This document shows, in pieces, positions 712-17,816 of a DNA stretch of 33,933 nucleotides (the first letter of the stretch is position 1; each line of letters opens with the position of its first letter). The stretch comes from a virus. The stretch is taken from the IMG/VR virus record IMGVR_UViG_3300032213_002871, positions 1-33,933 of that record, one strand, 5' to 3'. Made by a program: the position numbers and the translations under genes. The notes beneath the pieces were generated by a model, which saw only the letters and a list, made by a program, of their open reading frames with translations, did no database searches and was not told the origin of the DNA.

Positions 712-1100
712 GCTATCCAGCCTTGCCCTGTAATTTGATGGTACCATAGATAAAAGTTGGCGGGGATTTCGAAACTCCATTCGCCATAAAAATCTATATA
801 ACTTGTGGGTCTGCTAGCCAAATGTAAATATTTCGGCAAAACTTCTAATCCGTTAATTCCGAAATATTCAATTTCTAACGCACTAGAACCTTCTTTAAAA
901 TCTATTAGATTGACCCGGAGACTAATAGGATCAAATAAATTTACTGGAATATGACCGCTACCATTTTCAATATAAAAGCAATCATTAATACAAACTGTGG
1001 CCAAACAATAACCATGCACTTTATATCTTAATTCGATATTGAGTACATTTACAGTTTCAATAGCCGTAAGATCTGAGAAATTCTTTATATCGTGGTGCAT
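708..1100 (-). CDS. hypothetical protein, 130 aa
   Basis: I do not recognise this protein. It starts with MHHDIKNF and has alternating hydrophobic and polar residues suggesting a beta-rich fold, with no signal peptide or membrane segment. The start lies inside the 3' end of the radical SAM gene (44-nt overlap), and no in-frame start closer to the end of that gene was found. It is the last gene of the 708-5860 enzyme cassette and ends at the uvsE promoter. The tight coupling suggests that it works with the radical SAM enzyme, for example as partner or substrate, but that is inference only. Confidence 0.6.
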   Translation of the reverse strand: MHHDIKNFSDLTAIETVNVLNIELRYKVHGYCLATVCINDCFYIENGSGHIPVNLFDPISLRVNLIDFKEGSSALEIEYFGINGLEVLPKYLHLASRPTSYIDFYGEWSFEIPANFYLWYHQITGQGWIA

Positions 1101-2358: not shown

Positions 2359-2362
2359 TAGT

Positions 2363-3079: not shown

Positions 3080-3106
3080 ATTATTGTTGTTGTTCCAATA
3101 ATTTAT

Positions 3107-4120
3107 TTAGTGTTGTCGATTTAAATCTAAAGTCACACAGTGAAATCCTCCACCCAATGTTCTACTGTGCCTGAGTTCTAATGGTATAACTGTCATATTC
3201 TTTTGTTCTAATTTATGTATTAATTCAAATTGATTTTTATCAACAATAACGGTGTTCGGATCCACGCTGAAGATATTCATTGCTATCCATTTACTAGCAT
3301 ACGGATATTTGTAAAAGCTTTGTGGAACCACATCATCTACGTAGATCTTGTCCCATGATCTGAACAGTTTGGGACAGTTATCATTGTTTACTCTACTGCC
3401 ATTTAATAATACAAGTCCATCTCGCAACACGCTTATTGTACTATCTATATGTGCATAACTGTATAGGTTATCGACGATATGCACTCGATATTGTTTACCT
3501 AAAATATTTTGTAACCACTGAGCCCCTAACCTATTTCCGCTATTGCTGACCAGATATAGAAGGTCATTATTATGCCTCAATATATTCGCAGCATCAAACA
3601 TTGGTTCTCGTTCACTTAGTACAATATTGCCGTTATCAACATATGTATCTTGCGTTAGCAGTCTCGGCCTCGGTGCAGCAATCCACCTAGCATTATCATT
3701 GATTGCTTTGATTTTAATTTTAAAATAGGCAGACGATTCAAACTGTCTGCTTCTATACACCATCGGGCATTCTATTACTAAATCATCGACGACTAACAAT
3801 ACATCCCTGGGGCAATAGTTATACATACCATCCGTTTCCCATTCGTGTGTTTTTACTATGTATGCATGATCTATATCTGTAGGACGGTACACTTCAACAT
3901 TCAAAGACGTTAGTGTATCTGCTAAAATTTGCAGGTCTTCGTTGGCTTCGTCGATTACGTATTGCGGAAATTTTCCTGATGGCAAAGGTGTATCTTTCCA
4001 ATTAGTTACTTCTTTATTGTAATTAAAAATCTCATCTAATTTTGGAAAGCGGGCTGCTGTGGCATCACCGACTATACAAGATATTAGTTTATCATATTCA
4101 TTTTTGCTTGAAATTTTCAT
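3107..4120 (-). CDS. amidinotransferase (glycine/inosamine amidinotransferase family)
   Basis: A 337-aa member of the arginine:X amidinotransferase family, which moves the amidino group of arginine to an amine acceptor such as glycine or inosamine phosphate. Motifs include EVYRPTD (76-82), YNYCPRDVLLVVDD (100-113), a substrate-loop-like SRQFESSAYF, EPMFDAANI, YSYAHIDSTIS and LGGGFHCVTLDLNR. The putative triad is D176, H224 and C328. As I recall the human enzyme (D254, H303, C407), the His-Cys spacing is identical (104) and the Asp-His spacing differs by one, which argues for an active enzyme. The start overlaps the upstream 2OG oxygenase-like gene by 4 nt. The acceptor cannot be read from sequence. 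Confidence 0.88.
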   Translation of the reverse strand: MKISSKNEYDKLISCIVGDATAARFPKLDEIFNYNKEVTNWKDTPLPSGKFPQYVIDEANEDLQILADTLTSLNVEVYRPTDIDHAYIVKTHEWETDGMYNYCPRDVLLVVDDLVIECPMVYRSRQFESSAYFKIKIKAINDNARWIAAPRPRLLTQDTYVDNGNIVLSEREPMFDAANILRHNNDLLYLVSNSGNRLGAQWLQNILGKQYRVHIVDNLYSYAHIDSTISVLRDGLVLLNGSRVNNDNCPKLFRSWDKIYVDDVVPQSFYKYPYASKWIAMNIFSVDPNTVIVDKNQFELIHKLEQKNMTVIPLELRHSRTLGGGFHCVTLDLNRQH

Positions 4121-4635
4121 AGGTGCCCAGTAATTTGAAGAGTATATCTCGGCGCCAAACCTATATTAGCAGCCATATGTGGTGTATCATAGTGCCACAC
4201 TGCACAATCACCTGCACGCCATCCCACGAACGGATTATTATTGTATTCAGCATAATGGCCAGATTTCCAGTCTTCTAAAAAAACAATGGCGCGAAATATA
4301 CTCTGTTCATGTCCTTGTAAATTGAATAATTCAATATATTTTTTATAAAGGTCGCGGTGATCAGGCAAAACAGTACTAGTATCCATTCGATAATAGCTAG
4401 TGCCTATGTCCTTCCACCCTTTAGCTTTAAATATTTCAATGAATCTTTGATTCCACTGTGGCTGACTGCTACGCATGTCACACATCCATCCAGTAAAAGG
4501 ACCCGAATATCCTTGCGTAACCCAAAGAGCTATACTATCAGGATCATTGAAAGGTTCTCGGATGTAATTTAAACTTTTATATTCATCATCCCAGAACCTT
4601 GCAAGGTGCATCTTAGTGATGTCGCGTATTGCCAT
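4117..4635 (-). CDS. 2OG-Fe(II) oxygenase-like protein
   Basis: A 172-aa protein with the double-stranded beta-helix iron motif: H93-x-D95 (LPDHRD), distal H153 (YDTPHMAANIG) and R163 (APRYTLQITG), which would bind the 2-oxoglutarate carboxylate. WRAGDCAVWHYDTPHMAANIG is the usual jelly-roll C-terminal strand pair. Many phages carry such oxygenases, which hydroxylate proteins, nucleotides or small molecules; the substrate here is unknown. It overlaps the dehydrogenase gene by 23 nt and the amidinotransferase by 4 nt, so the three are almost certainly co-translated. Aspartyl/prolyl hydroxylase-like folds are the main alternative. Confidence 0.72.
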   Translation of the reverse strand: MAIRDITKMHLARFWDDEYKSLNYIREPFNDPDSIALWVTQGYSGPFTGWMCDMRSSQPQWNQRFIEIFKAKGWKDIGTSYYRMDTSTVLPDHRDLYKKYIELFNLQGHEQSIFRAIVFLEDWKSGHYAEYNNNPFVGWRAGDCAVWHYDTPHMAANIGLAPRYTLQITGHL

Positions 4636-5860
4636 AGTGTACTACAGTAACGTCATTGGTCGAACTTAGTTTACGCCACGGATCAACAATAATACTACCA
4701 GGAGCAATTACACAATAAGGTTTTGTGTCTGCTTGTTCGCCTGTATATTCGTAGGTAATTTTACGATTATGTGCCCACAGATAAACAGCCGGGCCATGAA
4801 CTTCTGCTATTACTTCATCTTTATTATCTGCTAACGGATCTACGTATGATACTTCGTGTCCAGCTTCTTTGACATAATGTCCAACTAATGTAGAATAAGA
4901 ACCGATACAATATTCAACGTCTGGTTTGTATGCCTTACCGTGAATGACAATGGGTAAGCCTGTGGCTTTAGATTGTTCAACCAAAAATAGTCCTAAATTC
5001 TTTGCTTGAATTTCTCTGGCATGCATGATAGTGTCAAACAAATCGTAGCCCACTTCATAGTGTTCAGCAAGCCAACGTAGAGCAATATTGTCACGTGGAT
5101 GGCAAGCACCTGCATCGCCCATGCCAGCAGTCATGTACTTAGGACCTTGTAAACGCATAGTACTACGAGCCAACGCATTAGTGACAACATCTACATTAAT
5201 ATTGCCGATCTTCATAGCAAAGTCTTGAATCATATTTACAATGCCTACTTTAGCACTAATGTAAGTATTGTAGAAGATTTTAATAGCTTCGCATTCGTCC
5301 CATGTTCCGACTTCATAACGGGGATCATTCTGCATCATAGTCTTGTATAAATCGATTAACTCTCCAGCGACTCCAGTGAGACTGCCATCTTCAGTTCCGA
5401 TGATAACCATTTCTGGATTAGCCATATCCCATTTGACACTGCCCATGGCAATCAAATATGGATTGTATAAGAATTGGTGTTTTTTATCTAATAGAGTAAT
5501 AAATTTTCTTCGAGTAGTACCAGGTAATACAGTACTAATTAGAACTACTTTTTTACTAGTTGTGGCATATTGATTAACTTTATTAATCGCATCAATAACC
5601 GCGTCATGCCCAAAATCTTTTGGTTCCATGTGACTCGACGGAACAGAGCCATCGTACCCTTCAGCATGTGGAGTAGGAACAGCGATGAAAATCCATTCAG
5701 CATTTTCGCACAGTTCTTTAATATCACAAACTTTTACAGTGTCGCTGGTGCGCGGGTAAATATCATAGCCCCAGACGTCGTGTTTTTCGGCCATTACTTC
5801 AGCACAGTCTAAACCAAGCTTACCAATACCGATAAATCCAATTTTTTGTTTTTCCATCAT
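4613..5860 (-). CDS. UDP-glucose/GDP-mannose dehydrogenase family protein
   Basis: A 415-aa NAD-dependent sugar-nucleotide dehydrogenase, the type that oxidises UDP-glucose or a related sugar nucleotide twice to the uronate. The NAD-binding GFIGIGKLG is at 8-16. The central-domain helix CEAIKIFYNTYISAKVG (from 190) holds the expected Lys (K194), and the catalytic cysteine is C253 in GAGACHPRDNIAL. HGKAYKPDVEYCIGS (from 318) resembles the C-terminal GLAFKPNTDD-type motif. The start is ATG-ATG at 5860/5857, preceded by AAGGA, with a sigma-70-like promoter at 5890-5918. It is the first gene of the enzyme cassette. The exact sugar is not determined; N-acetylhexosamine dehydrogenases of the same family are an alternative. 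Confidence 0.87.
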   Translation of the reverse strand: MMEKQKIGFIGIGKLGLDCAEVMAEKHDVWGYDIYPRTSDTVKVCDIKELCENAEWIFIAVPTPHAEGYDGSVPSSHMEPKDFGHDAVIDAINKVNQYATTSKKVVLISTVLPGTTRRKFITLLDKKHQFLYNPYLIAMGSVKWDMANPEMVIIGTEDGSLTGVAGELIDLYKTMMQNDPRYEVGTWDECEAIKIFYNTYISAKVGIVNMIQDFAMKIGNINVDVVTNALARSTMRLQGPKYMTAGMGDAGACHPRDNIALRWLAEHYEVGYDLFDTIMHAREIQAKNLGLFLVEQSKATGLPIVIHGKAYKPDVEYCIGSYSTLVGHYVKEAGHEVSYVDPLADNKDEVIAEVHGPAVYLWAHNRKITYEYTGEQADTKPYCVIAPGSIIVDPWRKLSSTNDVTVVHYGNTRHH

Positions 5861-7018
5861 ATGTTTTCCTTAGAAAATTTTTATCTTATATTATACACAA
5901 ATTTACTTAAACCTGCAAATCTACATGATTGCTATTTTTTTCCATTCGGCAGTACTAACGTAAATGAGTTAATGTTCAATATTCATGAGAATAGTTATGT
6001 TCATAAAAACTTTTGTTTCTTCTATGACCAAGAACCTTCCAATATTGATACTGTACAAACTTGTGTTAAACACTATGCGTCATTGCAAAAGAATAAAAAC
6101 AAAGAAATAATTTTTGCCAACAGTGAAAAATCATCTTTCATAGACACTATATGTCTTGAAAACGGTTTTAAAAATTGGTACTATTTCTTTCATGGATTTG
6201 CTGCGTTGACTTGGTACAGAGATTATCAATACATCCCTAATTTTGAAAATCACTTCACTAAAGTATTTATTAGCTATAACAGACTGGTAACAAAAGATAG
6301 AAGCTATCGTTTAAATTTAGTAAGTCATTTGTACGAAAGAGATCTGTTAAAACACGGACATGTAAGTTTAATACTGCGAGACAACGGATTGGGAACCTGG
6401 CAGGAAGAATTGGTGGATCCAAGTTCAAGATTAAGCTTAGAAGCCAAAGCCCGAGTCGAAAAAAATATTAAAGAATTAAAAAATGGATTAATAATAGATT
6501 CTGACAATCCGCCCGGACATGCCAGTGCTAATACAGGAATAGCAGAAATTTCTATGCATAAATCTGCGCTTTGGCACATAGTTACCGAAACAGTTTTTTA
6601 TGATGATAAAAAACATCTTACTGAAAAAATTTTTAAACCAATTACAGCAAAAAGACCTTTTATTCTAGTGGGAGCACTAAACAATCTTGCATACTTAAAA
6701 AGTTACGGTTTTAAAACTTTTGATCAGTGGATCGACGAAAGTTATGACAATGAGCCCGATCCAGATAAAAGAATACTGTTAATCACCGAGCAAGTTGAAA
6801 AACTTTGCTCATTGTCAGCTTCTCAATTGGACGCTATGTACATTGAAATGAAACCTGTTTTAGAATACAATTTTCAACATTTTTACGGAAACTTTAAAAC
6901 ACTTATAATTGACGAACTAGTTGATAACTTTCGTCAAGTTCTCTACGATTTCACCGACAGTAAAGTTGATATTTCTAACATTAATTTTGACCAAGTTAAA
7001 AACATCCTGCACAAATAA
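5861..7018 (+). CDS. glycosyltransferase-like phage protein
   Basis: A 385-aa protein when started at the ATG at 5861; an upstream in-frame TTG at 5846 would lie inside the divergent gene. It has no signal peptide. The C-terminal part contains LTEKIFKPITAKRPFILVG followed by LKSYGFKTFDQWIDESYD (about residues 255-300), resembling the nucleotide-sugar-binding TEK region of GT10/GT-B-like glycosyltransferases seen in many T4-like phages. No Shine-Dalgarno is visible before 5861. The neighbours (dehydrogenase, epimerase, GT2 gene further on) fit a sugar-transfer job, perhaps host surface or virion glycosylation. I am sure of the coding region, less of the activity. Confidence 0.62.
   Translation: MFSLENFYLILYTNLLKPANLHDCYFFPFGSTNVNELMFNIHENSYVHKNFCFFYDQEPSNIDTVQTCVKHYASLQKNKNKEIIFANSEKSSFIDTICLENGFKNWYYFFHGFAALTWYRDYQYIPNFENHFTKVFISYNRLVTKDRSYRLNLVSHLYERDLLKHGHVSLILRDNGLGTWQEELVDPSSRLSLEAKARVEKNIKELKNGLIIDSDNPPGHASANTGIAEISMHKSALWHIVTETVFYDDKKHLTEKIFKPITAKRPFILVGALNNLAYLKSYGFKTFDQWIDESYDNEPDPDKRILLITEQVEKLCSLSASQLDAMYIEMKPVLEYNFQHFYGNFKTLIIDELVDNFRQVLYDFTDSKVDISNINFDQVKNILHK
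5890..5918 (-). promoter_or_regulatory. sigma-70-like promoter of the enzyme cassette
   Basis: On the minus strand TTGCAG (5913-5918), 17 nt, TATAAT (5890-5895). Transcription would start around 5883 and give a leader of about 23 nt that includes the AAGGA ribosome-binding site of the dehydrogenase gene. The promoter lies inside the first codons of the divergent plus-strand gene, an unusual arrangement. Confidence 0.6.
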
Positions 7019-7058: not shown

Positions 7059-7340
7059 ATGGGAGATATTTTTAAATTAATAGGAGATCTAGGATTTCCT
7101 ATTGCAGTGGCACTGGCTGGCGGGTATTTTGTATACTTAACCATAAAACTATTATTACAGGGTGTACTAGGCAGCATCAAAGGTATGGCTGGAATCATTA
7201 CTGCACTGGATAATCGTGTAAAAACTATGAACCACGACGTTGTCCGAATTGACACCATTGTTAGTAATGCATTAGGTTTGAAACCCGACGTTGACCGTAT
7301 TGCTCGTGCAGATGGCAAAAATGATGCAAGGAGAGATTAA
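7059..7340 (+). CDS. small single-span membrane protein, holin-like
   Basis: 93 aa with a ribosome-binding site AAAGGAA just upstream. An N-terminal amphipathic stretch (MGDIFKLIGDLGFP) leads into one membrane segment (about 12-37), then an amphipathic helix (about 40-75) and a charged tail. The arrangement GFPIAVALAGGYFV resembles GFPIVMAVGMGYII in the gene at 7521, so the two are paralogues. The layout of one span plus a polar helix is like BhlA/UviB-type small phage membrane proteins, some of which act as holins. Without lysis genes next to it this remains a guess. Confidence 0.65.
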   Translation: MGDIFKLIGDLGFPIAVALAGGYFVYLTIKLLLQGVLGSIKGMAGIITALDNRVKTMNHDVVRIDTIVSNALGLKPDVDRIARADGKNDARRD

Positions 7341-7528
7341 TGAAATATATTGATTATGTTTGGGATTTAACCCCTACATCGATTATTCCAGATGCAGAGT
7401 TAGATACAGATAAGTTAGAATGGAAAACAGGAGATTTTTGGCAGGTAACTGAGTCGTCGCCCGGAAATAAAATGCTAGTTAAGGTAGATCCGATAGTAAA
7501 ATTTGTGTTAGGGCACGGCAATGAGTGA
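7340..7528 (+). CDS. small conserved phage protein, 62 aa
   Basis: A 62-aa acidic soluble protein (MKYIDYVWDLTPTSII) with an excellent ribosome-binding site (AAGGAGAG) and a start that overlaps the last base of the preceding stop. It overlaps the next gene by 8 nt. I associate similar short proteins beginning with YVWDLTP with T4-like phages of aquatic bacteria, but no function is known to me. It sits between two related membrane genes and is certainly translated with them. Confidence 0.65.
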   Translation: MKYIDYVWDLTPTSIIPDAELDTDKLEWKTGDFWQVTESSPGNKMLVKVDPIVKFVLGHGNE

Positions 7529-7910
7529 AGTAGTAGAATTAATTAACAAATATGGATTTCCGATTGTCATGGCAGTTGGCATGGGTTATATCATTAAATA
7601 TGTGTGGGAATGGTCAACGAAAGAAGTTAAACCAGTGATTTCGGAAGCCAATACTGTTCTTATTGCACTTATCGATCGTATCCGTATGTTAGACAATGAT
7701 TTAATACGTTTAAATCAGAAAGTAAACACAGTATTACACCTGCGTGGTAAGATGATTGAGTCGGACCGTGTTATGGAAGGTGTTAAAGTTGAAAGAGAAG
7801 CAGCAAAACAATTCGACAGGGCAGTACGCATGGATGACGAAAAGGCTGCTACCGCTGGTCGAAAAATCGACGAAGAAGACAAGAAAACAGCAGCAGCTGG
7901 CGAAGGCTAA
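7521..7910 (+). CDS. small membrane protein with long polar helix, holin-like
   Basis: 129 aa, paralogue of the gene at 7059: an N-terminal span in YGFPIVMAVGMGYIIKYVW (residues 11-29), then a long predicted helix (EANTVLIALIDRIRMLDNDLIRLNQKVNTVL, written here in parts: heptad-like I/L spacing from 42 to 72), and an Ala/Lys/Glu-rich tail that could form a coiled coil. Function unknown; a holin-like or membrane-anchoring role is possible. The stop codon TAA (7908-7910) touches the stop of the convergent cyclase gene, with no room for a separate terminator. Confidence 0.65.
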   Translation: MSEVVELINKYGFPIVMAVGMGYIIKYVWEWSTKEVKPVISEANTVLIALIDRIRMLDNDLIRLNQKVNTVLHLRGKMIESDRVMEGVKVEREAAKQFDRAVRMDDEKAATAGRKIDEEDKKTAAAGEG

Positions 7911-9965
7911 TTATTTTTCGTGTGCTACAAATTCTCCATTCCAATTTGGACCTAAATTCTGTTGCTTCATAAACTCACAACGTTCGATCCAAATCTTATA
8001 ATACTTGTCCATTTGACCACCAAATAGACCTTTCATCTTCTTACACATAGAAGCAGCTTCATCAAACTTTTTCTGTTTATACAAGGCATGCATTGCTTCG
8101 TGCTGTTCTCTATCTTTGCTATAATCTTCGCCACGCGGTCGGATTACGGTGTAGATTAAGTCTGCCACAGTCTTGCCTTTTGGTTGTAAATTATCTAGTA
8201 GTAAGTAGAAAAAGTCGTCTTTGGTTCTGTTGTATGTCTCAGCACCAATAATAGCCAACACACCATAGGCCTTACAACGTGCTTCTAAACGTGCCGCAGT
8301 GCTAACCATATCACCTAAGATATCATAACTGTGTCTATCAGTGCTTCCCATTTCACCAATAAAGCCAATGCCTGTGTTACAACCCCACCCCATTGCAGCA
8401 GGTGGTAAACCCTGTGCTTCCATTAGTTTAGTGTATTCATCTACAGCATCTAACATTTCTAACCCTACCTTAACGATAGTACGAGCGTGGTTGGGGTCTT
8501 CAATAGGAGCACCGTGTATGTGCATACTAGCGTCACCTACATACTTGATAACCATACCTTTGTTGTCCATGATAGGTTTGCTGATAGCATCCATGTAACC
8601 ATTCATATACTTGCCTAACCCGCCTACATCATCACCGTAGTGTTCACCGATAGGTGTAAAGCCACGCAGGTCACTGAACATAACTGATACGTCTTTACGC
8701 ACACCACGTTTGATTAAGTCTGGATCTTTTTGCAACATCTCTACTACTTCTTTACTGCAATATCCAGCAAACTGTTTCTTTATGGCTTGCTTTTGTAAGA
8801 ACTCTGAGACAAATTTGACACCATAGGCATGCAAAGCGACCAGGATTGTGCCAGCTGCAAAGGCAGTACTGTCAAATAAGAATAAAAAGTTGCTGTAAGC
8901 ATAGTAACTGCCAGCAATACCGCCAGCAACCAATACAATAACTGACGCAAGTCCAACATAAGTCCACCTTGTTAAAAACAGTAATAACAATCCTGCAATC
9001 GCAATTGCGATAATTTCTAAACCATCTGCATAGTCTGGACGTTGTATGTTTACTCCATTGGCCATAGTACCAATAACTGCGGCCTGCATGTCTTGTGGCC
9101 ACACACTACCGATACTGGTTGGCACAGGATTACCCAGTCCCGCTGCGGCAGTTCCTACAATAACAATGGCACCTTTAAGGTCTTTTGGCAAATCAGCCAT
9201 AGACACTGATTTACTTTTTTGACTCCAATCAATCCAAACACGGCCTAAATTGTCTGTGGGAATAACACCCACATCTCCAGGCAAGCGCATTTTTTCTACT
9301 CCACCCTCAAATAGTTTAACTTGAAAAGTACTGTTAGCAGTGGCCACACGCATGGTTTCCATGGCCAAACTGGGGTACAGTTTTCCGTCTACGGTGACAA
9401 TTAAAGGCAATCTACGATTAACACCGTCGATTTCTGGCAGTGTATTTGTTGTACCAACGCCTGCGGCTGCATTTTCTAACTGAGGTATATTAGCAATAAG
9501 ACCGGGATAGGTAACAATTTGGTCTAACCATTCTGGATTGAGTACAGCACTGCCTGGCGTTTTTGGAGTGTTCTTTGTTTTTTGTGCAGGTGTATTAGCT
9601 AGCACAACAGGATATTGTTTTAGTGTTGCAGCTAGTGCAGCGTCTCCGCCTTGCCTATCTGGTTCGGGCATTAGTACATTCCATACTACTAATCCTGCTT
9701 TGCGGGCATACAATTCTTGAATCATAGCTGCATAGACATCACGCTTAAATGGCCATTGTCCGTATTTGGTCATAGTGTCTTCGTCAATATTGACTGTGAC
9801 TATGTTATTTTCAGTTGGTGCTTTGCTGGTTATTAATGTGTCAAAGTAGCGTAGTCTTACACTTTCGATAAATGTAGTGTCAGATACCCGTAGACCTAGC
9901 ACAACCGCTAGTGTAATTAATGCTGTCCATGGATTAACTAGTATTTTTTTAAGGTTGATCTTCAT
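7911..9965 (-). CDS. CHASE2-domain adenylate cyclase (class III)
   Basis: A 684-aa transmembrane sensor cyclase. A short cytoplasmic N-terminus and one span (about 13-27) lead to an extracytoplasmic CHASE2 domain (about 35-305, with VTVNIDEDTMTKYGQWPFKR and KGAIVIVGTAAAG). Three spans follow (about 315-385), then a class III cyclase domain (about 425-590). Using numbering with the upstream TTG as residue 1, metal aspartates are D433 (MFSDLRGFT) and D479 (KYVGDA), and the adenine-selecting pair is K475 and D549. R560 is present, but the usual transition-state Asn is Ser556 (MVSTAARLE). The product should be cAMP if active. ATG at 9965 has AAGGAA upstream. A full-length sensor cyclase on a phage genome is unusual. 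Confidence 0.92.
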   Translation of the reverse strand: MKINLKKILVNPWTALITLAVVLGLRVSDTTFIESVRLRYFDTLITSKAPTENNIVTVNIDEDTMTKYGQWPFKRDVYAAMIQELYARKAGLVVWNVLMPEPDRQGGDAALAATLKQYPVVLANTPAQKTKNTPKTPGSAVLNPEWLDQIVTYPGLIANIPQLENAAAGVGTTNTLPEIDGVNRRLPLIVTVDGKLYPSLAMETMRVATANSTFQVKLFEGGVEKMRLPGDVGVIPTDNLGRVWIDWSQKSKSVSMADLPKDLKGAIVIVGTAAAGLGNPVPTSIGSVWPQDMQAAVIGTMANGVNIQRPDYADGLEIIAIAIAGLLLLFLTRWTYVGLASVIVLVAGGIAGSYYAYSNFLFLFDSTAFAAGTILVALHAYGVKFVSEFLQKQAIKKQFAGYCSKEVVEMLQKDPDLIKRGVRKDVSVMFSDLRGFTPIGEHYGDDVGGLGKYMNGYMDAISKPIMDNKGMVIKYVGDASMHIHGAPIEDPNHARTIVKVGLEMLDAVDEYTKLMEAQGLPPAAMGWGCNTGIGFIGEMGSTDRHSYDILGDMVSTAARLEARCKAYGVLAIIGAETYNRTKDDFFYLLLDNLQPKGKTVADLIYTVIRPRGEDYSKDREQHEAMHALYKQKKFDEAASMCKKMKGLFGGQMDKYYKIWIERCEFMKQQNLGPNWNGEFVAHEK

Positions 9966-9996
9966 CAATTTGTTTCCTTAACTTCTAATCGATTGA

Positions 9997-11361
9997 TTAT
10001 ACATTAGCGGTATTTGTGCTAGGGTATGCTCGGCCATCGCCCCATATTATACGTACCGCACCATTACCCCCGAATCCAATTCTATCATCAGGATCAAATA
10101 TCATTTGTGGGCCGACAGAGCCACCACCTGCACCATATAATCCGCCGTCTCCGCCGCGTTGCAAAGAATTTGAATTATATACACCCACAGCACCAAATCC
10201 GTTGCCAATGCCTGGATAACTTTGATTTGAAATAGTAGGCCCTCCGCCGCTGCCTGGTTGCCCGACAGCTCCTTCGTCAATACCATAAGCAGTGGCATTT
10301 CCTGAAGTTATATATGTTTGTGTCGATGATCGCCAATACCCACCTGATGATCCTTCGCCGTAAATTCCAACACCCGACCCGCCGCTACCTGCTCCAAAAC
10401 TATAATCGTATGGACTTAATCCACCCGGACCTGGCACAAAGTTAGTGGGAGTTCTATTCCATGAACCTCCAGCGCCGCCACCTGTGCCGGCAGTTGGCAT
10501 AAAGATAAACCGTGGATTAGCAGAATTAAGTGTGGCGCCATCTGTACCTGCGTTACCACCATTACCTGAATAGCCTGCTGTACTACCACCCGATCCTCCG
10601 CCGACACGGTATACAACCCCACCACTCAATGATGCTGGGTTGTTAGCTGCCAGGCCGCCGCGGCCTCCAAAGCCACCACCATCTCCGACGTATCCGCCGC
10701 CGACTGCGCCGTTGGCATAATTGCTGCCGCCTTGGCCGCCCAGGCCAGCCACAGTGTTTGCACTTATAAAATAACTGGCATTACCAGCTTGGCCCACTTC
10801 ACCCTGAAAATACAAGTTCCACCCTAAATAACTTCCGGTTCCCACTTGTCCAGTCACTAACATTGTTAGACTAAGTTTGTTAGCAGCCAAAGAAGTTATA
10901 GTGCCCACCATATAATAGCTGGGATTTGCCATCGGAGATGCTTTGATGTCGTTGTATAAAGCAAAAGTTGTTGGGCTGTCTAGTGTAAAAGTAACTGTAC
11001 CAGAGTTTACGATCAGCACCGTATTAGACGATGTTGATACCGGAACGCCGGTGGCTAGTTCCGTTCCTCCGGCGCCAACTACTACAGTGTATGATTGCCC
11101 TGGGGTAACTGAGATATTATTTTTCCAACCCAAGCCGCCAGCGCCCCCGCCTCTACGCAATTGATCTACATCACTGGGACTAGTTCCTCTAGTTCCTGCA
11201 CCGCCCGCGCCAATACAAACCACACTCACTGAAGTGACACCAGTGGGTGCTGTCCATGAATAAGTTCCCGGTGTTGTAAACTCAGCTTGTCCTGCTGCTG
11301 CGGGCACTGGAGCCACCGCCAAAATTCTTGTGCCTCTGACACTACCGCCGCGTATAATCAT
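9997..11361 (-). CDS. glycine-rich adhesin-like protein 1
   Basis: A 454-aa protein with a short N-terminus, then a small beta module (AEFTTPGTYSWTAPTGVTSVSVVCIGAGG, from about residue 25, given here only to mark position) and long tracts of GG, GGxG and GNGG. The C-terminus GAVRIIWGDGRAYPSTNTANV is shared with the next gene. Poly-glycine tracts of this type occur in distal tail-fibre adhesins of T-even-like phages, where they form polyglycine-II bundles with variable loops that contact the host. It lacks a signal peptide and lies by a late-type promoter motif, so a virion receptor-binding role is likely. A cell-surface protein is less likely. Confidence 0.72.
   Translation of the reverse strand: MIIRGGSVRGTRILAVAPVPAAAGQAEFTTPGTYSWTAPTGVTSVSVVCIGAGGAGTRGTSPSDVDQLRRGGGAGGLGWKNNISVTPGQSYTVVVGAGGTELATGVPVSTSSNTVLIVNSGTVTFTLDSPTTFALYNDIKASPMANPSYYMVGTITSLAANKLSLTMLVTGQVGTGSYLGWNLYFQGEVGQAGNASYFISANTVAGLGGQGGSNYANGAVGGGYVGDGGGFGGRGGLAANNPASLSGGVVYRVGGGSGGSTAGYSGNGGNAGTDGATLNSANPRFIFMPTAGTGGGAGGSWNRTPTNFVPGPGGLSPYDYSFGAGSGGSGVGIYGEGSSGGYWRSSTQTYITSGNATAYGIDEGAVGQPGSGGGPTISNQSYPGIGNGFGAVGVYNSNSLQRGGDGGLYGAGGGSVGPQMIFDPDDRIGFGGNGAVRIIWGDGRAYPSTNTANV
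11081..11140. repeat. 60-nt perfect direct repeat, copy 1
   Basis: Identical base for base to 11528-11587. It encodes the module around LGWKNNISVTPGQSYTVV of the first glycine-rich gene, near its N-terminus. In the second gene the same module is near the C-terminus, so the copy is not simply the result of collinear gene duplication. Confidence 0.9.
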
Positions 11362-11406: not shown

Positions 11407-12303
11407 TTATACATTGGCGGTATTTGTACTAGGGTATGCTCGTCCTACACCCCAGATAATTCGAGCAGCACCGTTGCCGCCGTTACCACTAAAGTTGGGA
11501 CCATCAGTGGCGCCTCCGAGGCCCACAACTACAGTGTATGATTGCCCTGGGGTAACTGAGATATTATTTTTCCAACCCAAGCCGCCACCACCGCCATTAA
11601 TATTATAAGTTCCGCCACCACCACCGCCATATGCTCCACCTCTGTAGCCTTGTGCGCTGCTGCCATTTGGATATTGTACCCCGTTGCCACCAAACGAGCC
11701 GCCGCGAGCGAATCCTGTGCCATTCAAAGAACCAGCTATTGGAGAGCCATTGCCGCTGGTCCCTTGTCCGTATATACCCACGCCACCGCCTTGCCCCCAA
11801 GCGCCACCGCCAGCACCACCGCCTTGGCCATTGCCTCCTGCAATTGTAACAGTGGGCGCAGCAGTGCCTAATCCGCCATCACCACCGTTACCCGAGTATC
11901 CAGCTGCGCCACCGCCTCCATAGAAATTCGACCCAGATCCAGTATAACTATTTCCGCCAAACCCCCCACCGTCTCCTACATATCCGCCGCCAGCGCCGTA
12001 GCCTGCTCGTAGCGTACCAGAGGTACCGCTCATTGCGCCGCCTCTTAGTCCCCCAAAACCCGCAACAGTATCTGTACTGATAAAATAGGTATTCCCACCA
12101 GAAGTAACGCTGGCGGCTGAAGAGGATTGGCGGCAGCCACCGCCGCCTGCGCCCACGCATACAACAGACACTGACGTTACCCCCGCAGGCGCTGTCCATG
12201 AGAATGTCCCGGGAGTAATAAATTCAGCTTGCCCGGCAGGTGCCGAAACTTGTGGTACCTGTAACGAAACCCCGTTTGAAATAGTAACTCCACTTATAAG
12301 CAT
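11407..12303 (-). CDS. glycine-rich adhesin-like protein 2
   Basis: A 298-aa relative of the preceding glycine-rich protein. After MLISGVTISNG comes the same beta module (PGTFSWTAPAGVTSVSVV), then GG/GGxG tracts, then the GLGWKNNISVTPGQSYTVV module, here at about residues 240-260, and the shared C-terminal tail RIIWGVGRAYPSTNTANV. The order of modules differs from gene 1: the WKNNISVTPGQ module follows the glycine tracts rather than preceding them. It is likely a second host-binding tip or a variant of it. The ATG has no Shine-Dalgarno and lies 7 nt after a late-type promoter motif. Confidence 0.72.
   Translation of the reverse strand: MLISGVTISNGVSLQVPQVSAPAGQAEFITPGTFSWTAPAGVTSVSVVCVGAGGGGCRQSSSAASVTSGGNTYFISTDTVAGFGGLRGGAMSGTSGTLRAGYGAGGGYVGDGGGFGGNSYTGSGSNFYGGGGAAGYSGNGGDGGLGTAAPTVTIAGGNGQGGGAGGGAWGQGGGVGIYGQGTSGNGSPIAGSLNGTGFARGGSFGGNGVQYPNGSSAQGYRGGAYGGGGGGTYNINGGGGGLGWKNNISVTPGQSYTVVVGLGGATDGPNFSGNGGNGAARIIWGVGRAYPSTNTANV
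11528..11587. repeat. 60-nt perfect direct repeat, copy 2
   Basis: Identical to 11081-11140 over 60 nt, with both flanking bases different. It lies in the C-terminal part of the second glycine-rich gene. The perfect identity, while the rest of the genes has diverged, points to recent recombination or gene conversion. Confidence 0.9.
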
Positions 12304-12310
12304 AGTTTAA

Positions 12311-12318
12311 TATTTATC
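12311..12318 (-). promoter_or_regulatory. T4-type late promoter motif, leaderless
   Basis: GATAAATA followed by TTAAACT and the ATG of glycine-rich gene 2. It matches the T4 late -10 consensus TATAAATA in seven of eight positions. The 7-nt distance to the ATG equals that of glycine-rich gene 1 and of the gene starting at 23812. Confidence 0.65.
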
Positions 12319-13138
12319 GGAAAATCATGTCTTCCACAATCTGTTCCATAGAATATAAAGGTTTATAACCCAGTTTTTTTAATTTTTCTGTGTTCATGAA
12401 CATGCTGTGAACTTGAACAATTTTATGAAATTCGGGCGGTTCGATATTAACTAGCCGACTAGAACTGTTAGTAACAGTGTGTGCATATTCGATTATAGTT
12501 TTAAACTTGATGGGTTTTCCGTTGCCGATATTATATACAGTGTTAATATCTCCCTGATCTATCACTAATTTAACTGCTCTTGCCACATCAGTAACATGCA
12601 TATAATCCCTGTACATGTTACCGCCATCATATATTTTGATATCCTTGTTGGCTTTAATTTCATTAATTAAAAATTGCAGTGCATTTTTTTGTAGGCTGGC
12701 TTTTGGATCTCCTGGACCCACAACATTTGCTAATCTTAAAATTCTATATTTGATGTTAAAAACTTTGGCATAACACACTAATAAATCTTCTGCGGCCTTT
12801 TTTGTTATACTATAAAATCCAGTTGGTCGACAAGGGCTGTTTTCCTGAGCGGGCATTTCAGTATCACCGTAGACAAACCAACTACTGACAAAATTAAATG
12901 TTACATCTTTGTCCTTGCACTGTTCTAATACACGCATCAATGTAGTTAAATTGGTATTGATATCCACATACGGATCCGTTAGCATATTATAATTGCTAAT
13001 GGTACTGATGAGGTATAGGATATTTTTGGATTTTACAGTGTAATCATTGCGATCATTGACTATAACGTTGGGATATTGTTTAACGAAATTGGAGCCGACG
13101 AATCCCAGCCCCCCAAATACTTGAAGTTTTGTGTCCAT
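12314..13138 (-). CDS. NAD-dependent sugar-nucleotide epimerase/dehydratase (extended SDR)
   Basis: A 274-aa extended short-chain dehydrogenase counted from the ATG at 13138 (an upstream TTG at 13144 would overlap the -10 box). The Rossmann motif is VFGGLGFVGSN (near residues 7-17). A catalytic Ser in FVSSWFVYGD and Y-x3-K in YSITKKAAEDLL (about 109-113) are present, as is YRDYMHVTDVARAV, typical of UDP-sugar epimerases and dehydratases. It is somewhat shorter than the usual 300-340 aa. It lies between the curli operon and the adhesins and has its own sigma-70-like promoter. With the dehydrogenase, GT-like and GT2 genes it suggests a phage-directed sugar modification. Confidence 0.87.
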   Translation of the reverse strand: MDTKLQVFGGLGFVGSNFVKQYPNVIVNDRNDYTVKSKNILYLISTISNYNMLTDPYVDINTNLTTLMRVLEQCKDKDVTFNFVSSWFVYGDTEMPAQENSPCRPTGFYSITKKAAEDLLVCYAKVFNIKYRILRLANVVGPGDPKASLQKNALQFLINEIKANKDIKIYDGGNMYRDYMHVTDVARAVKLVIDQGDINTVYNIGNGKPIKFKTIIEYAHTVTNSSSRLVNIEPPEFHKIVQVHSMFMNTEKLKKLGYKPLYSMEQIVEDMIFR

Positions 13139-13143
13139 ACACA

Positions 13144-13172
13144 ATTATATAGTATTGACTACACCCAGTCAA
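13144..13172 (-). promoter_or_regulatory. sigma-70-like promoter of the epimerase gene, leaderless geometry
   Basis: TTGACT (13167-13172), 17 nt, TATAAT (13144-13149), then 5 nt to the ATG at 13138. The predicted transcription start falls at the start codon, and no Shine-Dalgarno is possible. It lies in the short gap after the last curli-operon gene. Confidence 0.72.
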
Positions 13173-13176
13173 ATTA

Positions 13177-14478
13177 TTATGGCTGCACCACTGTGGTTGC
13201 ACATCCGCCTACCATACCACAACTCTGGGTTATAGAAAATATTTGATTACCATTTTGTGTTAGATTAAGAGTGGCTGCACCACCTGCATTGGTTAGATCA
13301 ATGGTTGCTTTATTTTGTGTTGATCCTGTTTGATTAATATTCGCAGTATGGCCATTGCCTGTTAATTTGTAGTCTAAGTAATGTTGTCCAGTACCTTGTT
13401 GTGTGGCAGTAACATTGTTATTTGACCCGTTGATCACAGTTCCAAACATAATTTTATTACCATTATCTAATTGCTTGTTAGTAATAATGTTATTGTTGCC
13501 CGATATGGTTGTTTCCATATAATGGCCGCCCACTCCTCCCGAATTAGATTGCTGAGTAATCAAATTATTTGAACTTCCGTAAACATCCAATGCTAGATAA
13601 TGACCGTTGCCACCAATGGCTGTGCCTGTATTATTTCTAGCTTGCCCTATATTAATAGTATTAGAATTTCCGATGACTCGCAGTCCTATTTCATTTTGTC
13701 CAGCACCAGTTACGCCCTGATTAATGGTTATGTTATTTTGATCGCCTTGTATTTTGGATGCCTGTTGGCCAATGCCTGTGATAAGATTTTTATTTCCAGT
13801 TTGAACGACAGTTAGACTATTGTTATTACCAATTTGTTCAATGTATATTCCGTTGTTGGTGATAGTTTTAGCAGCCCATGCATTTACTCTTGTTTGCTGT
13901 GTTGCAGTTATATTAGAAGAATACACTGGGCCACCTCCGCCCGAATTATTGGGCGTGGATGTAGCTGTCTGACCAGCAGATAATGGTTCAGTACTATAAC
14001 TTGCATTTGCGTATGCATCAGCTTGTGCAATAGTAGGATTAAGTGTTCCTGTCCATGACACACCCCCCGTACCGCTCATCCCATTGCTGCCACTGAACAA
14101 TTGCCCAGTGTTATTATCACTGCCCACAAAGAAAAAATAGTCAGGTCCCATGTTAACTATCTTGCCAGAACCCATTGTGGCTTTTAGTTGTCCTAAATTA
14201 TTATATTGTTTTGCCAAATAAGGAAAACTGGCATTTCCGCTAAGTTCGAATTTTACATAGTCCCCCACTGCCCAACTTAGTTGCCCTGATGTCCACGGAA
14301 TTTTGTATGCAGTGCCCGGCTGCTTACTGTAAATTTGGCAGGTTGTAGTGTTCAAACATGCACTGACATTCCATTGACTGTCGGCAATTTGATATCTACC
14401 AAATTTTATATCCGTTAATGCTGAATGTGCATTAACAGAAAATACAAACAATGCCAGTGACAATAAAAAATTAATCAT
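13177..14478 (-). CDS. curlin-repeat secreted protein with N-terminal extra domain
   Basis: 433 aa. A signal peptide (about 1-20, ending VNAHSA) precedes a novel N-terminal domain of about 160 residues with C41/C47 (DIKFGRYQIADSQWNV onward). A Gly/Ser/Asn linker (175-190) follows, then curlin-type repeats from about 209 to 420. The clearest repeat is GIYIEQIGNNNSLTVVQTGN (210-229), the N-x5-Q-x-G-x2-N pattern of CsgA/CsgB amyloid strands, followed by further N/Q/G-rich repeats at loosely similar spacing. C420 and C426 near the end could form a disulfide. It is a probable cargo of the CsgG pore: minor subunit, nucleator or adhesive tip. The ATG overlaps the stop of the FecR gene by 4 nt. Confidence 0.82.
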   Translation of the reverse strand: MINFLLSLALFVFSVNAHSALTDIKFGRYQIADSQWNVSACLNTTTCQIYSKQPGTAYKIPWTSGQLSWAVGDYVKFELSGNASFPYLAKQYNNLGQLKATMGSGKIVNMGPDYFFFVGSDNNTGQLFSGSNGMSGTGGVSWTGTLNPTIAQADAYANASYSTEPLSAGQTATSTPNNSGGGGPVYSSNITATQQTRVNAWAAKTITNNGIYIEQIGNNNSLTVVQTGNKNLITGIGQQASKIQGDQNNITINQGVTGAGQNEIGLRVIGNSNTINIGQARNNTGTAIGGNGHYLALDVYGSSNNLITQQSNSGGVGGHYMETTISGNNNIITNKQLDNGNKIMFGTVINGSNNNVTATQQGTGQHYLDYKLTGNGHTANINQTGSTQNKATIDLTNAGGAATLNLTQNGNQIFSITQSCGMVGGCATTVVQP

Positions 14479-15584
14479 CTTTGTATTAAGGTAATAATTG
14501 TATTACCTCCCGCGTTGACACGATTTTTAAATTCCAATGTTCCCTGTGTTTGATAAATGGTGCTATTTTGAGTAAATGGCGTTGCTACACATTGTATGTT
14601 ACTGCCATCATTCCTGCATAGTTCAACTCTTGATTCGTCTTTGATCGCAATTATGCCACTGCTACGTCTATAATCTGGCAGAACAGTGTCTACTTCATCC
14701 AATAATTTTTCATTTAATATATCACCAATCATATCAAACAATCCATTTAAAAAAGATGTATCTAAAAAATCATAACTTAATCTATCCTGAAATATTCTAG
14801 CTTGTTGTATGTCAAGTTGATTTTCTAATCCTTGTTCTTTTAAAAAATCAACATCTAAAAAATTTTTAGTTGTTAATTTATTATCGGAGTTTTCTTTTCT
14901 CAATTCTTTTGGTGGACTTAACAGTATTATATTACTAATAGCGTCTTCACTTAAATTGAGAATGGCGGGTCTCATAGGTGGAGCACTACGACTTTCAACT
15001 CTGGTTGCTTGAAACGCTTGATTAAGTATTACTTGTCCTGCATCACTTTCGACGATGATTGTCCCAACTATGCAATTACGTTCAACATCTTGTTTGGTTC
15101 TACTAGGTTTATTATCCGGGCAACTGGGTAAAAGTATAATAGTACTTTGCCCAAGTTCGTCTACTGTGGCTGTGAAATCTGTGCCCCTTACACTGATAGT
15201 AGCAGTAGGGGTATTTAATGCTACGTTCTGAGGTGCATTTTTTGCAATCTGGCCCGATGCATATCTCACAGTACCTAACGCAATCTTTGCTCCTAATTTC
15301 CCAGACTTACTTTTTGGATCGTAGACAAAGTCATCTATTACCAGTTTAGAATTTTCGTTAATTTGGACTTTGGTGTCATCCTCAAACGTTATGCCCACTT
15401 TACCTCTGGCAGTTCTAATAGCGTCATTCATTTCCACTCCCGTTCCTCTACCCGCAGTGATTGAATTGTTTTGTCGTTGTATACTGGGAGGAGTATTCAC
15501 CAGTTCCGTTACTTTACCAACAGCAGCAATAGAAGTATCAGATAGAATTAATAAAAGTGAGAATGATAATATTCTCCATGTCAT
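14475..15584 (-). CDS. FecR-domain periplasmic/secreted protein in curli operon
   Basis: 369 aa with a signal peptide (about 1-20, LILSDTSIAAVG) and a FecR domain at about 50-140: IRTARGKVGITFEDDTKVQI, then SGKLGAKIALGTVRYASG and PTATISVRGTDFTATV. This is the beta-solenoid-like FecR fold used in many cell-surface and FecR-like proteins. Unlike true FecR sigma regulators, no membrane anchor precedes the domain and no sigma-factor gene is nearby. The C-terminal half is unassigned; it has a cysteine pair (C321, C329 region). Being sandwiched between two curlin-repeat genes implies a role in curli assembly, cargo capture or wall anchoring. Confidence 0.8.
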   Translation of the reverse strand: MTWRILSFSLLLILSDTSIAAVGKVTELVNTPPSIQRQNNSITAGRGTGVEMNDAIRTARGKVGITFEDDTKVQINENSKLVIDDFVYDPKSKSGKLGAKIALGTVRYASGQIAKNAPQNVALNTPTATISVRGTDFTATVDELGQSTIILLPSCPDNKPSRTKQDVERNCIVGTIIVESDAGQVILNQAFQATRVESRSAPPMRPAILNLSEDAISNIILLSPPKELRKENSDNKLTTKNFLDVDFLKEQGLENQLDIQQARIFQDRLSYDFLDTSFLNGLFDMIGDILNEKLLDEVDTVLPDYRRSSGIIAIKDESRVELCRNDGSNIQCVATPFTQNSTIYQTQGTLEFKNRVNAGGNTIITLIQR

Positions 15585-15586
15585 TT

Positions 15587-16369
15587 TTAATTCTTGGTTG
15601 TTATATTAAATGTATTTCCCGAACCAATGCCTACTATGTTTACTGTAGTGTCTATGGTACCTTGTTGTAATACAGTGGTGCTATTGCTAGATCCTGTCAG
15701 GTTTATAGTAGCAGAATGGCCAGAAGTACTTCCGCCACTTTGTGTTATTGAAGTAACATTCAATGTGCCCACTGTGGTAAGATTAACAGTGCCTTTGTCA
15801 CCGGTAAGATTTAAAGTAGTTTCATTTCCTCCACCACCTGTTTGATTAATCACTGATGTAGTAGAGTTGGCGTTAATTGTGGCAACTATTTTATTATTAT
15901 TTCCGCCAGCTTGGTCCACGGTTAAACTATTATTAGAACCTAGTATGTTAACTGTGGCTATTGCTCCATCACCGGACTGATTAATGTCTAAATTAGTACT
16001 AGAATTTATTCCAGTGCCAGCATTATTTAAATTAATAGTACCAACAGCATTGCTGCCTGTGACTTTATAAACAACGCTTGTTGGACTCGACCCGTTGGCT
16101 GTAGTGGTAACTAAACCTAAATTCAATATGTTGCCGCTACCAATTTGCTCCACAGATACGTTAACAGCATCACCAGTTATCTTAGCCGGGGTAGTATTTC
16201 CAGTTCCCACTCCCTGTATTCCTCGAATCCTATTACCCGCACCTTCTTGCAGCATTGTTACGACAGCGTTATCACCTGCTTGATCAATGTATATGCTGTT
16301 GTCAGATCCTATAGCTAATGATGATGATATCATCATTAATAGTACTGCTATAATTTTATTTTTTTTCAT
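15587..16369 (-). CDS. curlin-repeat amyloid subunit (CsgA/CsgB-like)
   Basis: 260 aa from the ATG at 16369, giving a classic signal peptide (MKKNKIIAVLLMMISSSLA). An in-frame TTG at 16402 has AGGAG four bases upstream and would add 11 residues, so the start is not settled. The first repeat, SIYIDQAGDNAVVTMLQEG, has the curlin pattern seen in the other subunit (IYIEQIGNNN). The remainder is a long N/T/G-rich solenoid of about ten strands with N, Q and G at regular intervals (VEQIGSGN, DINQSGDG, TVDQAGGNNN, VINQTGGGGN, ITQSGG, LQQG). Length is larger than E. coli CsgA (about 150 aa). Likely the main amyloid subunit or nucleator exported through CsgG. Confidence 0.82.
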   Translation of the reverse strand: MKKNKIIAVLLMMISSSLAIGSDNSIYIDQAGDNAVVTMLQEGAGNRIRGIQGVGTGNTTPAKITGDAVNVSVEQIGSGNILNLGLVTTTANGSSPTSVVYKVTGSNAVGTINLNNAGTGINSSTNLDINQSGDGAIATVNILGSNNSLTVDQAGGNNNKIVATINANSTTSVINQTGGGGNETTLNLTGDKGTVNLTTVGTLNVTSITQSGGSTSGHSATINLTGSSNSTTVLQQGTIDTTVNIVGIGSGNTFNITTKN

Positions 16370-16428
16370 TTTTGTTAAAAGTTGATTTATTTTTTTCCTC
16401 AACTTGCTCCTGTAGTTTTACTTTTATT

Positions 16429-17349
16429 TTATTTTCCTCCATTAGCTTGTCCGCGATCGGGCTGTGCCAATGATGCGGGAGATGTTTCTCCTCTTTTATC
16501 CGGGGTCGTCTCTTGAACCAGCTCAATTTGATTTCCCTCCTTATTATGTTGTGTTGTTTGTGTTTTAAAATCCCAAATTGATTTTCGTTGACCTTCTTTG
16601 ATTAACTCAACTACCGCCGCTTCTATAGCAGTCTTCACCGCATAAGTACCCGGTTCGTTTATTGTTAAACCAGCTTCAGCTTCAAATGCTTTAGTTCCCA
16701 GATCAAAGAATTTAAACGCTGTGGTACTATCGCTGCTACTTAATATGGTTTTTTGCACTGTTACGCTGATAAGAACTTTACCGGTGTTTACACTAACGGC
16801 TCTTAAACTAACTGTAACAATATCTTCACTATACTGAGTTTGAGTGCCTATACCCAACCATCTAGCACCAACTCCACCCGACTTAGTACTAGAATCATAG
16901 CCAATGATACCACCTTCTATAATCATACCAGCAAATTGCATAGGCATTAAAGGTCTGGCATTGTTACCTTCGTAAGCCTCCCTCATTTGTCGGATAATTA
17001 ATCTTTCTTTTGTCAGGTTATCTATTCCCACTCGCTCAACTACTTCGAACCATTGACCTCGTCCTACATCTTGCAGTGCCTTAATAAGAAACGATTCTGC
17101 TCCTTGGGTTACCGCAGTACTCAAACTTGCAATATTTTGTAGGGGTCTTCTTTGTCCAGTTTTATCTTGAAAACTGTATACTGCCACACTGATCGGTTTT
17201 CCTGCTGCAGGGGGTGGTACACTGTCAAATTCTTTTTGAAGTACATTTTTAGTAACTTCTGGCGGCGCGTCTAAGTCTCCTGCCAATTGATGTATTGCAC
17301 ATCCATTTAGCAAACTTACCATTGTTAGGACTATTAATTTATTCTTCAT
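16429..17349 (-). CDS. csgG: CsgG curli secretion channel lipoprotein
   Basis: 306 aa, the outer-membrane pore of curli (type VIII) secretion. A lipoprotein signal peptide ends in LLNGC (Cys17). Clear CsgG family blocks are SVAVYSFQDKTGQ, LSTAVTQGAESFLIKALQD, FEVVERVGIDNLTKERLIIR, IEGGIIGYDSSTKSGGVGARW and GIGTQTQYSEDIVTVSLRAV; the last ones match E. coli CsgG closely. The channel-constriction loop is GQRRPLQNIASLSTAV, different from the Y/N/F set of E. coli. A tail of about 45 residues after the CsgG domain is charged and Gln/Pro-rich. It is 2 nt downstream of csgF without a Shine-Dalgarno, implying translational coupling. Confidence 0.96.
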   Translation of the reverse strand: MKNKLIVLTMVSLLNGCAIHQLAGDLDAPPEVTKNVLQKEFDSVPPPAAGKPISVAVYSFQDKTGQRRPLQNIASLSTAVTQGAESFLIKALQDVGRGQWFEVVERVGIDNLTKERLIIRQMREAYEGNNARPLMPMQFAGMIIEGGIIGYDSSTKSGGVGARWLGIGTQTQYSEDIVTVSLRAVSVNTGKVLISVTVQKTILSSSDSTTAFKFFDLGTKAFEAEAGLTINEPGTYAVKTAIEAAVVELIKEGQRKSIWDFKTQTTQHNKEGNQIELVQETTPDKRGETSPASLAQPDRGQANGGK

Positions 17350-17351
17350 AA

Positions 17352-17816
17352 TTAAAATTGGAATTGTCCTAATGGAACAGTAATTTCAGAATTAACTCCG
17401 GGCCCATTTACTGTTAGTTTAATAGTGCCAGCCAAAGAATCTTTGACCCAACTAATAGTTGTATTAGTTGCTTTATCAAACGTAAAAGACCCTGAATCCG
17501 ACCCCCCACTTGCAAACATGGCTGTGGCCAAATTTTGGCTTATCTGTGCATAAATTCTAGACTCTAAATTGTTTAGAAATTTATTTAAATTGGTGTTTTT
17601 TTCATCAGCCTTGATTTTGTCCAGTTCGGATTGTACTTTATCTGCTATAGCTTTACGTCTAGTAGATTCTTGATTTTCAATGGTCAATATATGACTACTA
17701 AGCCCTATCCCGCTAAAGCTAGGATTTTTAAATGAAAAATCTGACAAAGGCGCTGATAAAACGACAATAGGCGCCGTAATGGCACCTATTAACAGGTATT
17801 TTATTGTTTTTATCAT
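17352..17816 (-). CDS. csgF: CsgF curli assembly protein
   Basis: 154 aa with a signal peptide (about 1-21) and then the CsgF signature DFSFKNPSFSGIG (26-38), close to the TFQFRNPNFGG of E. coli CsgF. That N-terminal segment inserts into the CsgG pore and forms a second constriction. The C-terminal domain (YAQISQNLATAMF and ISWVKDSLAGTIKLTV) aligns with the family pattern. CsgF couples export to nucleation at the cell surface. It is the first gene of the operon, with a strong GGGAG Shine-Dalgarno and a T4-type late promoter motif just upstream. Confidence 0.93.
   Translation of the reverse strand: MIKTIKYLLIGAITAPIVVLSAPLSDFSFKNPSFSGIGLSSHILTIENQESTRRKAIADKVQSELDKIKADEKNTNLNKFLNNLESRIYAQISQNLATAMFASGGSDSGSFTFDKATNTTISWVKDSLAGTIKLTVNGPGVNSEITVPLGQFQF

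Follow-up and report, generated by a model that had tools for sequence, protein, structure and literature searches.

A phage-borne curli secretion cassette whose second curlin appears to carry an exchangeable head

The closest described relatives of the locus studied here are the curli operon of Escherichia coli (csgBAC and csgDEFG) and the type VIII secretion system (T8SS) module of pelagiphages. In phages, csgF and csgG were reported in 2020 (PMC7029224), and in 2022 a module of CsgF, CsgG, CsgA/B, FecR, a second CsgA/B and an adenylate cyclase was described in HTVC023P-type Podoviridae and in Myoviridae, with no CsgC, CsgD or CsgE (PMC9599517). The records of Methylophilales phage Melnitz EXVC044M and Pelagibacter phage HTVC008M annotate the same order, cyclase included. 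The purpose of curli genes in phages has been debated since 2020, and an uptake pore, the timing of lysis and the sticky capture of neighbouring cells have all been considered. Here the virus record IMGVR_UViG_3300032213_002871 (33,933 bases, the entire record being referred to as the window) was analyzed for a cassette of this kind. The cassette itself is already known in phages (Melnitz, HTVC008M and uncultured pelagiphages, 2020-2022), and the novelty that a preliminary description of this DNA had seen in the full set with its FecR partner was lost with PMC9599517 and the GenBank annotation of Melnitz. What appear to be unreported so far are a modular second curlin, two small companions (p93 and p129) that are too short for kinases, and the probable presence of the cassette in a lineage resembling phage Atu_ph07. 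Neither exchangeable heads on the second curlin nor the p93/p129 pair as such were found in the main texts of PMC7029224, PMC9004378 and PMC9599517, or in a wider search of papers.

Five intact open reading frames (ORFs) on the minus strand (13177-17816) encode, in reading order, CsgF, CsgG, a first curlin-repeat protein (curlin 1), a FecR-domain protein and a second curlin-repeat protein (curlin 2), with the order and coordinates first proposed for them (Table 1). The assignments of CsgF, CsgG and the FecR-domain protein between the two curlins were borne out by Pfam. When a profile built from 19 viral CsgG proteins was compared with the solved E. coli CsgG (3x2r/6l7a), the two matched over 262 positions (E-value 4.8e-65), and the N-terminal pattern PxxDxxFKxPxFxGxGYSSHxLTIENQE of CsgF was kept among 70 viral members. 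In PHROGs, CsgF, CsgG, the FecR-domain protein and the cyclase each match a family, and these families are unnamed. The set was called complete in the preliminary description, which overlooked three further members: an adenylate cyclase with a CHASE2 sensor, p129 and p93. A Leu in place of Phe at the CsgG constriction was considered as a phage-specific change of the pore and rejected, as several alphaproteobacterial CsgG proteins have Leu and some phages retain Phe.

The gene order was compared among 80 IMG/VR viral loci gathered by CsgG similarity, and only loci reaching far enough were counted at each step. The csgF gene adjoins csgG in 80/80 loci, curlin 1 follows in 62/62 and the FecR gene in 50/50. 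A second curlin was present in 35 of 40 loci, and the cassette ends with the adenylate cyclase in 33 of 34. The order of the PMC9599517 module (csgF-csgG-curlin-FecR-curlin-cyclase) was found in the window and in up to 80 relatives. Since the neighbours are fixed in the viral loci, the gene set is not a chance grouping. For ten cassette and slot genes, the ratio of nonsynonymous to synonymous substitution rates (dN/dS) was determined by comparing the window with its nearest relative. All ten ratios lie at 0.02-0.09 and are rough, because several dS values exceeded 1. Judged from these sequence comparisons, the cassette genes are under strong purifying selection.

Compared with the PMC9599517 module, the window adds a variable slot with an epimerase and glycine-rich proteins before the cyclase, and p93 and p129 lie past the cyclase on the other strand. 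In Melnitz and HTVC008M, which belong to the T4-like Kyanoviridae, curlin 2 is followed by the cyclase with nothing inserted, unlike in the window. Their identity to the window is 40-46 % for the FecR-domain protein, 46-47 % for CsgG and 50-58 % for p93, and the Melnitz cyclase is 46 % identical. According to PMC9004378, Melnitz is without csgA and csgB; ORFs 101 and 103 of its GenBank record (MZ577097.1, L002) are annotated as curlin-associated repeat proteins. The CsgG pore, CsgF and curlin-type repeats are common to the window and the E. coli curli operon. In contrast to E. coli, CsgD and CsgC were not seen and CsgE had no match in the window, which adds the FecR-domain protein, the CHASE2 cyclase, p93/p129 and a curlin with a head.

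The preliminary description had counted two proteins with curlin-type repeats. This holds for curlin 1, which exceeds the gathering score of the Pfam profile Curlin_rpt, while curlin 2 falls below the cut-off but keeps the curlin residues in its repeats, so both can be regarded as curlin-repeat subunits. The spacing GxxN-x5-Q occurs four times in curlin 1 and six times in curlin 2 (0.6 expected), and none of 2000 shuffled sequences scored as high. Among 48 curlin 1 relatives, 35 matched Curlin_rpt (best E-value 6e-17). Although identity falls to 35 % among these members, the residues that are invariant across the 48 proteins are nearly all Q, G and N of the curlin motif, accompanied by two Asp residues near the N-terminus. 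The first start codon of curlin 1 in the window is TTG, and the ATG at 16369 is the likelier start.

Curlin 2 consists of about 220 C-terminal residues of conserved curlin-type repeats behind an N-terminal head. The repeats were modelled as a solenoid of short strands that matched solved beta-helices in VIA-align with Z scores up to 17.5, a match that covers the repeats only and barely probes the head. When the heads were clustered across distinct loci, type A was found in 11 (including the window), a PA14-related type in 10, types C, D and E in five, five and three, respectively, and a singleton in one (L035), and curlin 2 was headless in 13. A PA14 domain was recognised in 7 of 33 curlin 2 relatives and an F5/8C domain in 3 of 33, the latter inside type A relatives such as L007. 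The curlin 2 of HTVC008M joins the PA14 type, and that of Melnitz joins no head type.

An exchange was observed between the near-identical phage contigs L067 and L069, whose DNA is 96.7 % identical as far as the first codons of curlin 2 and 92.5 % identical past the head. At this place (L067:3327-4637 and L069:4038-5423), the two contigs differ by the clean exchange of some 500 bases, which encode the curlin 2 head alone, and the two heads, PA14 and type D, are unrelated. Head type also differed in four of ten pairs whose FecR-domain proteins were at least 90 % identical. The window and L005 share 87.8 % DNA identity through the FecR gene, after which the entire curlin 2 differs. These comparisons suggest that curlin 2 is modular, its conserved repeats being preceded by an N-terminal head that can be swapped (PA14, other types or none). 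PA14 is a sugar-binding domain in other bacterial adhesins, including the RTX adhesins MpIBP and MhLap (PMC6650083), where it forms the ligand-binding head of a repetitive surface protein, as in some curlin 2 relatives. The difference is that the PA14 head here belongs to a curlin-repeat protein of a CsgG system, is found in some relatives only and is replaced by another type in the window. A protein that encounters different partners in the surroundings of the cell would be expected to combine export machinery that is conserved with a tip that can be exchanged, and the exchangeable curlin heads point to such a binding role for these phage proteins as well.

The FecR-domain protein has an N-terminal signal peptide and a FecR domain at residues 55-148, with no further Pfam match. 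The layout of FecIRA-type anti-sigma factors, in which a cytoplasmic anti-sigma domain and a transmembrane helix stand ahead of the FecR domain, was not found in it. Because the signal peptide precedes the FecR domain, the protein is not an anti-sigma factor of that type. Its model (predicted local distance difference test, pLDDT, 73) aligned with the cell-surface signalling domain of PupR over 136 residues (Z 15.4; root mean square deviation 2.8), and the 72 N-terminal residues of the model matched the 'cell surface anchoring domain' of 5ix9 (Z 6.8), a match that may reflect a mere common arrangement. We also considered that the protein ends in a curlin-like unit and rejected this, as profile comparison gave a probability of about 1 % with a control run alongside.

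The predicted topology of the cyclase begins with a single membrane segment at the N-terminus, after which CHASE2 lies in the periplasm; three further membrane segments lead to the catalytic domain in the cytosol. Its metal-binding and adenine-choice residues (FSD, KYVGD and YD) are present. In the subgroup of the window, Ser takes the place of the catalytic Asn in the VN motif; the other residues tested, namely the two metal Asp, the Lys/Asp adenine selectors and the Arg, are all present. Two active-site types were seen among phage cyclases, YD..GD.VS (window, Melnitz) and FDYT..GD.VN (many relatives). In Campylobacterota, CHASE2 cyclases cluster with FecR-domain proteins and a shared pathway has been proposed (PMC9239204), and FecR neighbours were found at three bacterial CHASE2 loci. 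Because the two proteins co-occur in Campylobacterota and at several bacterial loci, a relay from the FecR-domain protein to CHASE2 is plausible. As a general alphaproteobacterial rule the pairing was judged weak and set aside.

The proteins p93 and p129 are paralogous, and each has a short hydrophobic N-terminus followed by a coiled coil. A search of 50,697 phage records with p93 gave six matches only, all of them records of Melnitz or HTVC008M, in which CsgG and the FecR-domain protein are found too. Among the viral loci, p93 or p129 was present in 51/80, and nearly all of the remaining loci end short of the expected place. In many relatives the pair lies directly ahead of csgF, the place where PMC9599517 puts 'a histidine kinase, sometimes two' in the phage module. 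Going by this position, p93 and p129 are probably the published histidine kinases, although at 89-130 residues they are too short for a complete kinase. Comparison with solved structures gave weak coiled-coil matches only. The parts list of the cassette is corrected in this respect by the addition of two virus-only membrane proteins.

Taken with the profile matches, the synteny, the purifying selection and the invariant curlin residues, we consider it fairly probable that this phage-encoded type VIII (curli) secretion cassette leads the infected cell to display surface fibres. The preliminary description had reached the same view of surface fibres and had placed a T4-type late promoter ahead of csgF. 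The promoter did not stand: the sole exact copy of the T4 late motif, TATAAATA, sits at 32936, and fewer motifs were found than chance expects. As the sequences support, CsgG and CsgF form the outer-membrane pore, curlin 1 is the conserved fibre subunit and curlin 2 a second curlin with its exchangeable head; both curlins may pass through CsgG and then assemble. The head would decorate the fibre and bind a glycan or other surface ligand. The FecR-domain protein, predicted to be exported to the periplasm, could sense the condition of the pore in the outer membrane or that of the fibre, and could signal through the CHASE2 protein, which is predicted to cross the inner membrane and to bear the adenylate cyclase catalytic domain, so that cyclic AMP (cAMP) would rise; p93 and p129 would be inner-membrane partners. 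The export role is well supported. As the benefit to the phage, we infer either a changed adhesiveness of the infected cell (capture of neighbouring hosts) or the masking of receptors against other phages as most likely. If the adhesin reading is true, a virus that swaps the head would alter the surfaces to which the infected cell adheres. As a broader and clearly more tentative proposal, several phage lineages may share a virus-specific curli system that places exchangeable ligand-binding heads on the infected cell, like tail-fibre tips, and in which a FecR-CHASE2-cyclase relay and the two virus-only membrane proteins couple fibre export to cAMP.

Several observations weigh against fibre display. 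Melnitz cultures were reported to be without clumping (PMC9004378). The relatives were all collected through CsgG, the curlin 2 of the window lies under the Pfam cut-off, Foldseek found no significant fold for the curlin 2 model with the head included, and no function could be assigned to the type A head of the window. The change of Asn to Ser may reduce cyclase activity, and at alphaproteobacterial CHASE2 loci FecR was adjacent in only 2 of about 28. In addition, the accessory gate CsgE had no match in the window, seven large relatives, Melnitz and HTVC008M, with E. coli and Pseudoalteromonas controls positive, and its absence had been noted in the preliminary description too. CsgE is stated to be dispensable for curli export (PMC7029224) and is also missing from alphaproteobacterial modules (PMC9599517).

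The absence of this periplasmic gate would suit a lysis or gating pore, in which CsgG, alone or together with CsgF, serves as a hole or secretin in the outer membrane that sets the moment of lysis, the other genes acting as its regulators. This idea, also raised in the preliminary description, had already been published for Melnitz with altered CsgF models (PMC9004378), and p93 and p129, as small membrane or coiled-coil proteins, are of about holin size. However, neither p93 (compared in eight records) nor p129 matches the BhlA holin family, the N-terminal segment of CsgF is conserved, and the Melnitz record annotates two curlin-repeat proteins despite the stated lack of csgA/B. Both curlins are retained and constrained, and head-swapped curlins would be superfluous for a pore alone. 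We consider lysis unlikely as the main role.

Still less probable is nutrient uptake, suggested in PMC7029224 and PMC9599517, in which a wide outer-membrane channel imports cofactors or iron complexes and the FecR-domain protein acts as an iron sensor. The match of the FecR domain to PupR, a siderophore signalling domain, agrees with this, but the FecR domain is the sole Pfam match of a protein with a signal peptide, no sigma-factor gene was recognised beside its gene, no transporter partner is linked, and the conservation of the curlins would be left unexplained. Finally, a functionless bacterial remnant or host contamination, for which it can be said that curli are bacterial systems and that some bacterial contigs carry the same cassette, is refuted in substance by the low dN/dS, by a gene order that stays the same in as many as 80 viral contigs and in both cultured phages, and by the differences from bacterial loci given below.

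When 80 loci from bacterial genomes were inspected, FecR and cyclase companions were found only in contigs of metagenome-assembled genomes (MAGs) with virus-type p93/p129, or in ones cut short; the bona fide bacterial curli loci of the set have no FecR, cyclase, p93 or p129. In a quick CsgG tree, in which long branches meet, CsgG from cassette-bearing MAGs and from viruses formed one group apart from 18 bacterial CsgG proteins (99 % support in the SH-like approximate likelihood ratio test, SH-aLRT). Seven MAG contigs binned as Rhodobacteraceae, Sphingobacteriales, Saprospirales or Synechococcus (L084, L086, L096, L098, L099, L102 and L109) carry the virus-type cassette with p93/p129 and are probably misbinned phage contigs.

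The nearest relative of the window is a 123-kb contig that matches 39 of its 41 ORFs. Among the proteins that it has in common with the jumbo phage Atu_ph07, partly in collinear order, are a Clp ATPase, DnaJ, PhoH, clamp loader and MazG. In two examined stretches of Atu_ph07, 13 proteins of the nearest relative found a match, several of them collinear, and none of the ORFs of the window itself did. Matches between window proteins and Melnitz are found chiefly within the cassette and in p93. T4 gp23 and gp20 (portal) were not found in the 123-kb relative or in four others of >100 kb, fragments that may lack them, and T4-type capsid and portal genes were present in 3 of 20 cassette-bearing relatives. 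The window would come from a phage group different from the marine pelagiphages of PMC9599517 and, judging from a fragment, probably jumbo. The cassette probably spans a further phage lineage beyond the T4-like one, which indicates that T4-like and HTVC023P-type marine phages are not its only carriers. Two other cassette-bearing viral contigs, G002 (192 kb) and G005 (229 kb), have no recognised T4 gp23, T4 portal or Terminase_6N, and 18 proteins of G005 match Atu_ph07.

Table 1 Features of the curli cassette and its neighbours in the window
Feature	Positions	Strand	Evidence
csgF	17352..17816	-	Signal peptide; Pfam CsgF E 3e-9, over cut-off; N-terminal FKxPxFxG segment conserved
csgG, outer-membrane secretion pore	16429..17349	-	Lipobox LLNGC; C-terminal tail variable; Pfam CsgG E 2.6e-51
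Curlin-repeat protein 1 (fibre body)	15587..16402	-	Curlin_rpt E 3.9e-5, exceeds gathering score
FecR-domain protein	14475..15584	-	Signal peptide; without transmembrane anti-sigma part; Pfam FecR E 1e-9
Curlin 2, variable N-terminal head, type A	13864..14424 (limits approximate)	-	Head clustering
Curlin 2, C-terminal curlin-type beta-solenoid repeats	13177..13863 (limits approximate)	-	Curlin_rpt E 0.008
NAD-dependent sugar epimerase, variable slot between curlin 2 and cyclase	12314..13144	-	Pfam Epimerase E 5.5e-32
Glycine-rich protein, tail-fibre-like, same slot	11407..12303	-	phrog_4474 E 4.8e-28
Second glycine-rich protein, same slot	9997..11361	-	Gly_rich_2 E 2.4e-12; phrog_863 tail fibre assembly E 2.6e-10
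CHASE2 sensor and class III adenylate cyclase, final cassette gene	7911..9968	-	CHASE2 E 4.7e-41; Guanylate_cyc E 7e-14
p129, cassette companion	7521..7910	+	Short hydrophobic N-terminus and coiled coil; conserved family
p93, p129 paralogue, cassette companion	7059..7340	+	One predicted transmembrane segment; 58 % identity in Melnitz

What lies between curlin 2 and the cyclase differs from one relative to another. Sugar-related genes are frequent in this slot, in line with the fibre-display reading; of its 44 ORFs, six encode glycosyltransferases, four epimerases, two carbamoyltransferases and six calcineurin-like phosphoesterases. The phosphoesterases were considered as cAMP phosphodiesterases and rejected, as their best NCBIfam matches, which are weak, point to LpxH-type enzymes. 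In the window, neither a signal peptide nor a transmembrane segment was seen in the glycine-rich protein that follows the epimerase. On the far side of p93 (1057-6000), a radical SAM protein, a UDP-glucose dehydrogenase and more unnamed ORFs were found, which suggests a larger surface-modification region.

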